From a virus: a stretch of 26,922 nucleotides of DNA. The position numbers and the translations under genes are program-made. The notes beneath the pieces were generated by a model. The model was given only the letters and a program-made list of their open reading frames with translations, did no database searches and had not been told where the DNA came from. Where the stretch lies: positions 1 through 26,922 of the IMG/VR virus record IMGVR_UViG_3300020162_000055, one strand, 5' to 3'. Below, one piece after another: positions 22,753 to 24,017 of this stretch; position 1 is the stretch's first letter; each line of letters begins with the position of its first letter.

Positions 22753-23203
22753 CATCTTTCAGGAGATTCCTAAAAGTAACACTAGGAAGTACCAGATTTG
22801 CGTGAATTTCCTCAAGAATTATCCGTTAAATTCGGAACAATACGCTGAGGAATTCGGAATGATGAGCTTTAAGTCTTTAGCTTTAATGCGCTGTGAGTTT
22901 GATGATATGTGTGAGGAGGGCTTGCTAAAGAAATATCAAGGCAGTTATAGTCCTAGTCCACGTTTGAAGAACTCGTTAAAACTGGATGAGATTGAGTACG
23001 TAAAGCCTAGAGAGCCTAAGCCATTTACGCCATTATCGAGCAAGTATTTTTTGCCTAAAGTATCACCAAGAGGTCAGGTTTTACGAGACTTCTGCCACAT
23101 AGGATTAAGCAATGGAGCAAAAGAAGAAGCAAGAAACGACTTATCAGTTCTTAACGAAGTCATGTCCGATTTGCAAGCGGAGCAGGTCGATAATCCAGTT
23201 TAA
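22745..23203 (+). CDS. Hypothetical early protein, winged-helix-like
   Basis: Encodes 152 residues with GGAGA upstream. Residues 1-75 look like a small winged-helix domain: helices in SNTRKYQICVNFLKNYPLNS and EEFGMMSFKSLALMRCEFDD, followed by EEGLLKKYQGSYSPSPRL as a possible wing. A Pro/Lys-rich linker (VKPREPKPFTPLSS) follows, then a short end. I do not recognise a family. Its position before the replication genes suits a DNA-binding early protein. Its last 92 bases overlap a zinc-ribbon frame in another reading frame. Confidence 0.6.
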   Translation: MGDIFQEIPKSNTRKYQICVNFLKNYPLNSEQYAEEFGMMSFKSLALMRCEFDDMCEEGLLKKYQGSYSPSPRLKNSLKLDEIEYVKPREPKPFTPLSSKYFLPKVSPRGQVLRDFCHIGLSNGAKEEARNDLSVLNEVMSDLQAEQVDNPV

Positions 23204-23252
23204 GAATAGTGATATTTGTAAGACTTGCAGGATCAGGAACAAAAGCGTATAG
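23112..23252 (+). CDS. Zinc-ribbon micro protein (46 aa), overlapping
   Basis: A 46-residue frame (MEQKKKQETTYQFLTKSCPI, CKRSRSIIQFKNSD, ICKTCRIRNKSV) has CPIC at 18-21 and CKTC at 36-39, i.e. CxxC-x14-CxxC in a basic setting, a classical zinc ribbon. AGGA lies 7 bases before its ATG. It overlaps the 3' end of the preceding gene by 92 bases, more than the other overlaps in this genome, but a chance frame carrying a clean four-Cys ribbon and a ribosome site is unlikely. Likely a small nucleic-acid-binding protein. Confidence 0.55.
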   Translation: MEQKKKQETTYQFLTKSCPICKRSRSIIQFKNSDICKTCRIRNKSV

Positions 23253-23253
23253 T
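23225..23253 (+). promoter_or_regulatory. Possible promoter for the structured RNA
   Basis: TATAGT at 23248-23253 is a good -10 box; TTGCAG at 23225-23230, exactly 17 bases upstream, is a weak -35. Transcription would start near 23260, just before the first hairpin of the structured RNA. The -10 overlaps the stop codon of the zinc-ribbon frame. Confidence 0.4.
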
Positions 23254-23259
23254 TATAGC

Positions 23260-23369
23260 AGTAGTACACGCTTGGAGGCGTGTTTTAGTAAGCCTTAGAT
23301 GGGACTCTGCTGGTACTAACCAGTCCTCCAACATCAGAAATGATGAGAGTCTCACCTAAGGCTTTTTTT
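23260..23369 (+). ncRNA. Structured phage RNA with pseudoknot and terminator
   Basis: Read directly: hairpin P0, ACACGC 23266-23271 with GCGTGT 23278-23283, loop TTGGAG. Outer stem P1, 23290-23298 with 23356-23364 (9 bp). After an A-C mismatch, P2, 23300-23308 with 23346-23354 (9 bp, one G-U). P2 opens into a three-way junction with P3 (CTGGT/ACCAG, 23310-23323, loop ACTA) and P4 (CATCA/TGATG, 23332-23345, GAAA loop). The joining strand CTCCAA (23326-23331) is the exact complement of the P0 loop (23272-23277). T23363-23369 gives a U-tract. It may be a trans-acting RNA or a leader/attenuator of the replication gene starting at 23382. I know no named family that it matches. Confidence 0.7.
23290..23369 (+). 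terminator. Rho-independent terminator formed by the RNA's closing stem
   Basis: The P1 stem AAGCCTTAG/CTAAGGCTT closes the branched structure and is followed directly by seven T. This would end transcripts from upstream unless the long stem is prevented from forming, leaving the replication genes dependent on read-through or anti-termination. Confidence 0.65.
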
Positions 23370-23381
23370 ATTGGAAAAGTC

Positions 23382-24017
23382 ATGCACTATTATCAATTCA
23401 ATATCGGTGATTACATAAGCCATACTTCTCATTTAACTAACGATGAGGATTTAACTTATAGAAGATTGCTCGACTTGTATTATCAAACTGAAAAGTCTTT
23501 TGACGTTATAGACTTACCTAAAGTAGCTAGAAAAGTTAAATCAAACGAAGAAACTGTAATGCTTATTTTGCATGAATTTTTTGAGTTTAATGTTGACGAT
23601 AATAGCTGGCACAACAAACGAGCGGATTCTGAAATCAAGGCTTATCAGAGCAAAGCGGATAGCGCACGTAAAGCGAATCAGATACGTTGGGGTTCTGAAA
23701 GGCATCTGAAATCAGATACGGCTCAGATCCTAAACAATAAACAAGAAACAATAAACAATATAAAGGATATACGTCCTTCAGACGTTGATGTATTAATTTG
23801 GCAAGATTTCGTTAAACATCGTAAAGCTAAGAAGTCACCAATAACTGAGACAGCATTAAACATGATTAGGACTGAGGCAAACAAAGCTAATTGGAAACTT
23901 CAGGATGCTCTAACGGAAATATGTTCTAGAGGATGGACTGGATTTAAAGCTGATTGGGTAAACAAAACTCAGGACTCAAAACCTGCATTTGATGGCAGAC
24001 TGCGAGGTGCAAAATGA
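23382..24017 (+). CDS. DUF1376 (YdaU-like) replication protein
   Basis: I start at the ATG at 23382 (MHYYQFNIGDYISHTSHLTN), the position where family members start; an earlier in-frame ATG at 23340 falls inside the structured RNA stem. The 211-residue protein has the DUF1376 core (EDLTYRRLLDLYYQTEKSFD and HNKRADSEIKAYQSKADSAR KANQIRW). A C-terminal half resembles replication-initiator helices (VDVLIWQDFVKHRKAKKSPI, GWTGFKADWVNK). Such proteins sit beside primase/helicase genes in phages and are thought to load helicase or bind the origin. Only a weak GGAAAAG ribosome site precedes it. Overlaps the next gene by ATGA. Confidence 0.75.
   Translation: MHYYQFNIGDYISHTSHLTNDEDLTYRRLLDLYYQTEKSFDVIDLPKVARKVKSNEETVMLILHEFFEFNVDDNSWHNKRADSEIKAYQSKADSARKANQIRWGSERHLKSDTAQILNNKQETINNIKDIRPSDVDVLIWQDFVKHRKAKKSPITETALNMIRTEANKANWKLQDALTEICSRGWTGFKADWVNKTQDSKPAFDGRLRGAK

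Follow-up and report, generated by a model that had tools for sequence, protein, structure and literature searches.

A double-pseudoknot RNA upstream of the gene that starts DNA replication in many phages, mostly uncultured and aquatic

To our knowledge, structured RNAs have rarely been described in the control of phage replication. Two phage RNAs offer a comparison, namely, phi29 pRNA, which has covarying loop pairs, and c4 antisense RNA, which belongs to an early regulatory region. In the IncI-alpha/IncB rep leader and Inc RNA system (ColIb-P9), the partner strand of the replication-control loop is CGCCAA; the pseudoknot strand lies beside the repZ ribosome-binding site, with an antisense RNA competing. 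The ColIb-P9 loop hexamer is UUGGCG, as given by Asano et al. 1998, cited in PMC10724649, and c4 antisense RNA has been described as a small structured phage RNA (PMC2864571). Here, we describe an RNA with two pseudoknots that resembles each of these systems in part. Most of its relatives carry the pair UUGGCG/CGCCAA, and it stands before a replication initiator gene; unlike ColIb-P9, it holds the partner strand inside a three-way junction, possesses a U tract and another pseudoknot, and is not known to have an antisense RNA. Control of the ColIb-P9 type was rejected because the partner strand lies in the junction and not by the ribosome-binding site, and the shared hexamer probably represents a common U-turn loop solution rather than homology. 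Like c4 antisense RNA, the RNA is small and structured and, like phi29 pRNA, it has covarying loop pairs, but it does not lie beside packaging genes and has no Rfam match. With riboswitches built on translational or terminator platforms, it shares a pseudoknotted core and a closing helix, P1, that may compete with one covering the ribosome-binding site, although no ligand is known and the downstream genes are initiators of several families, homing endonucleases and small genes, not those of a metabolic pathway. Present in more than 100 viral contigs, with strong covariation and no Rfam entry, this RNA makes the timing of phage replication genes a testable RNA question.

The stretch of DNA analysed (hereafter, the window) is an IMG/VR virus record of 26,922 bases, which carries virion, endolysin and tail-fibre genes along with an ERF recombination gene. 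The double-pseudoknot RNA occupies positions 23266-23369 on the (+) strand, and its transcript (~110 nt) probably starts at ~23260 and ends at ~23369, which corrects the wider limits of the preliminary description of this locus. The genes on its 3′ side encode a DUF1376 protein, a zinc-ribbon protein, a DnaB-like helicase and a DNA methylase. The product of the DUF1376 gene (23382-24017, + strand) is a primosomal-type replication protein that matches Pfam PF07120 (6.7e-18), the PHROGs category 'primosomal protein' (5e-28) and also 'replication initiation O-like'. Inside this gene, at 23731-23760, lies an AT-rich tandem repeat (AAACAATAAACAA), which may serve as a replication-origin element or as a linker. 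Upstream of the RNA, an ORF of 46 aa (23112-23252), absent from the 60-aa ORF scan, shows the zinc-ribbon pattern CxxC...CxxC, and its stop codon overlaps with the −10 box from which the RNA would be transcribed.

Five stems had been proposed from the sequence, and all five were located in the window. The 110-nt stretch containing them has a minimum free energy of −47.0 kcal/mol, compared with −25.2 ± 3.6 kcal/mol for 200 dinucleotide shuffles, none of which reached the native value (z −6.15). Covariation in homologues, whose absence had been named in advance as the argument against the structure, was looked for and is present. In an alignment of 27 sequences (A1), 97.9% of cells are paired and 18 pairs change on both sides; in an alignment of 84 sequences (A4), 93.7% of pair cells are standard and both-side changes occur in 38 of the 44 pairs. 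The A4 covariation score is 0.516, against 0.188 ± 0.006 with shuffled and at most 0.083 with slid partners, the shuffles being made irrespective of kinship. Thus, the proposed selection on RNA structure is backed both by the fold energy and by the covariation of all stems.

The P0 hairpin (ACACGC/GCGTGT; 23266-23283, + strand) closes the loop TTGGAG; A4 shows both-side changes in 5 of its 6 pairs and a loop of 6 nt in 84/84 sequences. P1 is formed, on the + strand, by AGCCTTAG (23291-23298) and CTAAGGCT (23356-23363), the latter serving also as the base of the putative terminator and as the 5′ strand of a competing helix, P5, discussed below. P2 is formed by TGGGACTCT (23300-23308) and AGAGTCTCA (23346-23354), likewise on the + strand. 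Together, P1 and P2 have 98.1% of their cells paired and both-side changes in 16 of 17 A4 pairs, and their joint length is 18 levels in 83 A4 sequences and 19 in the remaining one. P3 (CTGG/CCAG with the loop TACTAA; 23310-23323, + strand) is paired in 100% of cells, its variants among relatives being GG/CC, AG/CT and TG/CA. P4 (CATCA/TGATG; 23332-23345, + strand) has both-side changes in each of its 5 pairs. The P4 loop, GAAA in the window, ranges from 2 to 17 nt in relatives and varies in sequence as well, so that the suggested docking of a GAAA tetraloop is unlikely. The strand joining P3 to P4 (J3/4) is 8 nt long in 83/84 A4 sequences. Near-invariant unpaired bases are the G of J2/3 and the UC of J3/4; UUG in the P0 loop is likewise invariant. 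The constancy of helix and loop lengths points to a rigid tertiary core. The conserved G-U pairs on the + strand and the + strand orientation of the promoter and U tract argue for an RNA rather than structured DNA, and variable loop lengths argue against a coding role for the region.

The preliminary description had noted that the P0 loop, TTGGAG (23272-23277, + strand), is complementary to CTCCAA of J3/4 (23326-23331, + strand). This complementarity is present and covaries, with 99.4% of cells paired. The P0 loop is TTGGCG in 55 sequences of A4, TTGACG in 14, TTGGCA in 8, TTGGAG in 6 and TTGGTC in 1, and the complement follows each version. The resemblance to Shine-Dalgarno and anti-Shine-Dalgarno sequences (GGAGG/CCTCC), from which a translational role had been considered, is limited to the sub-clade of the window, most relatives having TTGGCG/CGCCAA, and mimicry of these signals was dropped for want of conservation. 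A second pseudoknot, overlooked earlier, covaries in the alignments even more than the first: here, the P0-P1 linker TTAGTA (23285-23290, + strand) pairs with TACTAA, the P3 loop (23314-23319, + strand). The 64 unique linker/loop combinations have a mean pairing score of 6.15, compared with 3.77 ± 0.11 for shuffled partners. In GC-rich members, the pairing persists with changed sequences, for example, TGTGGTG/CACCACA and TCATGTA/TACATGA. The covariance models were built without the pseudoknot pairs, and therefore the alignments are unbiased towards either pseudoknot. One locus (L052:943-1057) combines the P0 loop TTGGCA with the junction CCGTCAA, leaving a single A-C mismatch in pseudoknot 1; this hybrid probably arose by recombination inside the RNA.

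The earlier statement that no named family fits holds for the comparison with Rfam 15, in which the window yielded no match at gathering score. Up to E 10, only chance-level matches to MIR405 and Histone3 appeared in the window (E 2.7-3.3), and c4 antisense RNA (RF01695) gave none. At 8 loci with divergent members, nothing corresponded to the double-pseudoknot RNA up to E 1, and self-cleaving ribozymes in Rfam matched neither the window nor these loci. The open-access literature searched yielded no report of this RNA.

A 16-base pattern taken from P1 and P2 matched 71 viral contigs, the majority of which hold true copies, and a search with the DUF1376 protein combined with a looser pattern brought in many further loci. 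With two covariance models, one without pseudoknots (R1) and a broader one (R2), the RNA was found at more than 100 viral loci, a lower bound; the IMG/VR contigs are often fragments. The cellular genomes with a copy are one of Polynucleobacter, one betaproteobacterial MAG and two others that were sampled from the same family and order as the Polynucleobacter genome; among 369 genomes sampled from its class and 398 from its phylum, there was no additional copy. Polynucleobacter strain UK-Kesae-W10 is a carrier of the RNA. The many viral loci, the few Burkholderiales-type genomes and the lack of copies in the wider samples identify the RNA as mainly a phage element, whose hosts so far are Burkholderiales or close kin. 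A DNA search with the window matched no named phage, searches with divergent members returned only the uncultured Manatee Spring records MW202462 and MW202544, to which R2 added MW202520, and the plasmid search found no match. R2 also found nothing in the cultured DUF1376 phages compared (of Vibrio, Acinetobacter, Thalassomonas, Pseudomonas, Chlorobiaceae and Limnohabitans) or in the EBPR podovirus record. The Inoviridae are filamentous ssDNA phages. Limnohabitans phage DC33 (PQ492659.1; L290) has 39 kb and numerous early genes, along with a match to a replication protein; its record places it in that family, an assignment that looks wrong.

The position of the RNA is conserved with respect to the replication genes. 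In most loci, 10-16 nt separate the end of the RNA model from a same-strand start codon, and the first or second ORF bears a replication-initiator signature in 74/89 loci, where, by this signature, the RNA lies as a replication-control leader does, on the same strand and directly before the initiator gene. The initiators behind it belong to several families, including DUF1376, the KRPSFQFYP, KNWxxFQH and ARIRTIKPEF types, DUF4373-like proteins and others; among 50 divergent downstream proteins compared with PHROGs, 'primosomal protein' and 'replication initiation' predominate. Thus, of the roles listed in the preliminary description, that of a replication-gene attenuator comes closest to the evidence, given that the RNA heads replication genes in most relatives while the initiator family varies. 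Some loci have an insertion between the RNA and the initiator, either an endonuclease gene of the GIY-YIG or HNH type or a gene of ~70 aa. Homing-endonuclease-like genes directly behind the RNA are of the GIY-YIG type in L169, L204, L208 and L310 and of the HNH/AP2 type in L117, L232, L307 and L319. In the clade that lacks the U tract and in L305 and L311, an endonuclease-type gene follows and an adjoining initiator was not recognised. The Polynucleobacter copy has a CI-like repressor gene ~430 nt upstream on the opposite strand, which fits an early lytic operon.

Both signals said to frame the RNA, a −10 box TATAGT (23248-23253) and seven T (23363-23369), are there in the sequence. The −10 box belongs to a sigma70-like promoter read from the sequence, TTGCAG - 17 nt - TATAGT (23225-23253, + strand). 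In 83 unique upstream 60-mers scored with a sigma70 matrix, the best promoter score averages 8.89, compared with 3.97 at random genomic places, and the distance from the end of the −10 box to P0 is 4-8 nt in 71 of them (12 nt in the window). The terminator-like U tract follows P1 directly (23363-23369, + strand), with T at five model positions in 99-100% of A4; it is imperfect in GC-rich members and absent from one clade (L303/L307/L312/L316). Nearly all A4 members therefore present the arrangement of an intrinsic terminator, that is, a GC-containing stem, P1, followed by a U tract. An alternative antiterminator pairing upstream of the U tract was looked for and none was found, so that ligand-controlled termination is not evident; P1 and P2 look stable enough for constant termination. 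Both points weigh against the leader reading proposed below.

Also missed in the preliminary description is a helix, P5, predicted from complementarity between the 3′ strand of P1 with the U tract and the ribosome-binding region of the next gene. In the window, this hairpin (23360-23381, + strand) would join GGCTTTTTT (23360-23368) to GGAAAAGTC (23373-23381), with a folding energy, for the hairpin alone, of about −7.5 kcal/mol (about −6 to −9 kcal/mol across the members folded). In a swapped-strand test with one locus per distinct P1 strand, P5 scored 13.87 against 10.65 ± 0.74, and 0/1000 swaps scored as high, with kinship ignored. The versions of P5 include GGCTT/AAGCC, AGCCC/GGGCT, GGTTT/AAACC, CCCTT/AAGGG and GGTCT/AGACC, the last of which is retained in the clade without the U tract. 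In some members (L320, L199 and L218), a good P5 is missing. The statistics for P5 are weaker than those for both pseudoknots and are due, in part, to complementarity between the U tract and purines. Because P5 shares a strand with the base of P1, the two helices would be mutually exclusive.

The sequences themselves show the fold with its two pseudoknots, a promoter-like site and a U tract, the place of the RNA and the P1/P5 complementarity; from these we infer termination, hiding of the start signal, sensing by the core and the direction of the switch. That the RNA represents a new family of phage leader RNA gating replication-gene expression is, in our judgement, an evenly balanced proposal. 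Host RNA polymerase would start at the promoter just 5′ of P0, and the transcript would fold into a compact core in which P0 stacks on pseudoknot 1 and P3 on pseudoknot 2, both lying back along the 18-level P1/P2. A rough length estimate (~12 bp for P0 with pseudoknot 1 and ~10-11 bp for P3 with pseudoknot 2) suggests that such folding back is plausible but tight. P1 and the U tract would act as an intrinsic terminator and, because of this termination, the default product would be an RNA of ~105-110 nt, with the replication gene left untranscribed. After escape of the polymerase, the base of P1 and P5 would compete for the same strand, P5 covering the ribosome-binding site, so that the state of the core would select either P1, with the start signal free, or P5, with the start signal hidden. 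Pseudoknot 2 directly adjoins the base of P1, and hence the core could be in a position to make this choice. The trigger is presumably a common factor and not the protein encoded downstream; an initiator protein is unlikely in this role because it changes family while the RNA stays. More tentatively still, the double pseudoknot may be a sensor of a host or infection signal, with the closing helix setting both transcription and translation of the replication gene, in a module that would pass between phages independently of the initiator family and be interchangeable with int-alpA RNA; we consider this fuller picture possible and doubtful.

The main rival, which we hold to be unlikely, is a trans-acting small RNA, that is, an autonomous transcript of ~110 nt that binds a host or phage protein, or pairs with other RNAs, and merely adjoins the replication gene. 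A promoter of its own at a fixed distance, a U tract missing from only one clade and a compact fold of its own all speak for such an RNA, and having an independent promoter and terminator would be just as typical of it. Yet most of the divergent lineages keep the RNA 10-16 nt before a start codon, usually that of a replication gene, no second copies were seen among the loci examined, and one clade does without the U tract. Moreover, no conserved free seed is apparent, since covarying internal pseudoknots take up loops L0 and L3, and L4 varies. Complements of a phage's own P0 loop elsewhere in its contig show no clear enrichment, which counts against trans-acting or antisense function; antisense action through the P0 loop was dropped for this reason.

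An origin-associated RNA, such as a primer or a transcriptional activator for the phage replication origin, would account for an element that heads replication genes and persists while these vary. We nonetheless regard it as very improbable: no convincing iterons lie nearby, the initiator gene holding just some weak AT-rich repeats, and some relatives precede homing-endonuclease genes, with no adjoining initiator recognised. No more credible is an elaborate intrinsic terminator that insulates the replication genes from upstream transcription and senses nothing, as the U tract, the stable P1/P2 and the intergenic position would permit; termination, however, needs neither a pair of covarying pseudoknots nor rigid lengths nor invariant junction bases. 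The least probable reading, to which we give almost no weight, is a packaging-RNA-like or multimeric RNA in which loop/strand pairs join different molecules, as in phi29 pRNA: loop-strand covariation is common to intramolecular and intermolecular pairing, but the RNA is associated with replication rather than packaging genes, Rfam, pRNA included, gives no match, and the lengths of P0 and P3 with their pseudoknots seem compatible with folding back along P1/P2.

A different kind of evidence bears on the leader proposal. At DUF1376 loci without the double-pseudoknot RNA, another small conserved element often lies just before the ATG. This element is the Rfam int-alpA RNA (RF02996), of which a 2017 study of 224 candidate RNAs is said to be the likely source, and which thereby gains a new context, in the same place before the same gene. 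The Rfam covariance model places it above the cut-off in three loci (L155:2348-2416, L148:2911-2978 and L123:2909-2977) and below it elsewhere (L086, L088, L104, L110, L112, L113 and L134). Like the double-pseudoknot RNA, it is small, apparently pseudoknotted on inspection and, in several loci, preceded by a good promoter just upstream; in contrast, it has another sequence and fold, is unalignable with our RNA and mostly lacks a U tract. The RF02996 model gave no match to the double-pseudoknot RNA itself, and one locus (L198) has both, the int-alpA-like element being at another place. That two unrelated structured RNAs share one place, one of them mostly without a U tract, favours the role of a leader acting in cis.

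The int-alpA elements show an apparent pseudoknot between a loop and a downstream strand, for example, TCGTTAC/GTAACGA and TTATCAC/GTGATAA, and at the ribosome-binding site of these loci there is a hairpin, either AACC/GGTT or AGCC/GGCT. A third conserved sequence, for which L096 gave no Rfam match, lies ~150 nt before the DUF1376 ATG in L096, L097 and L099 and contains inverted repeats (GGTCAGATA...TATCTGACC).
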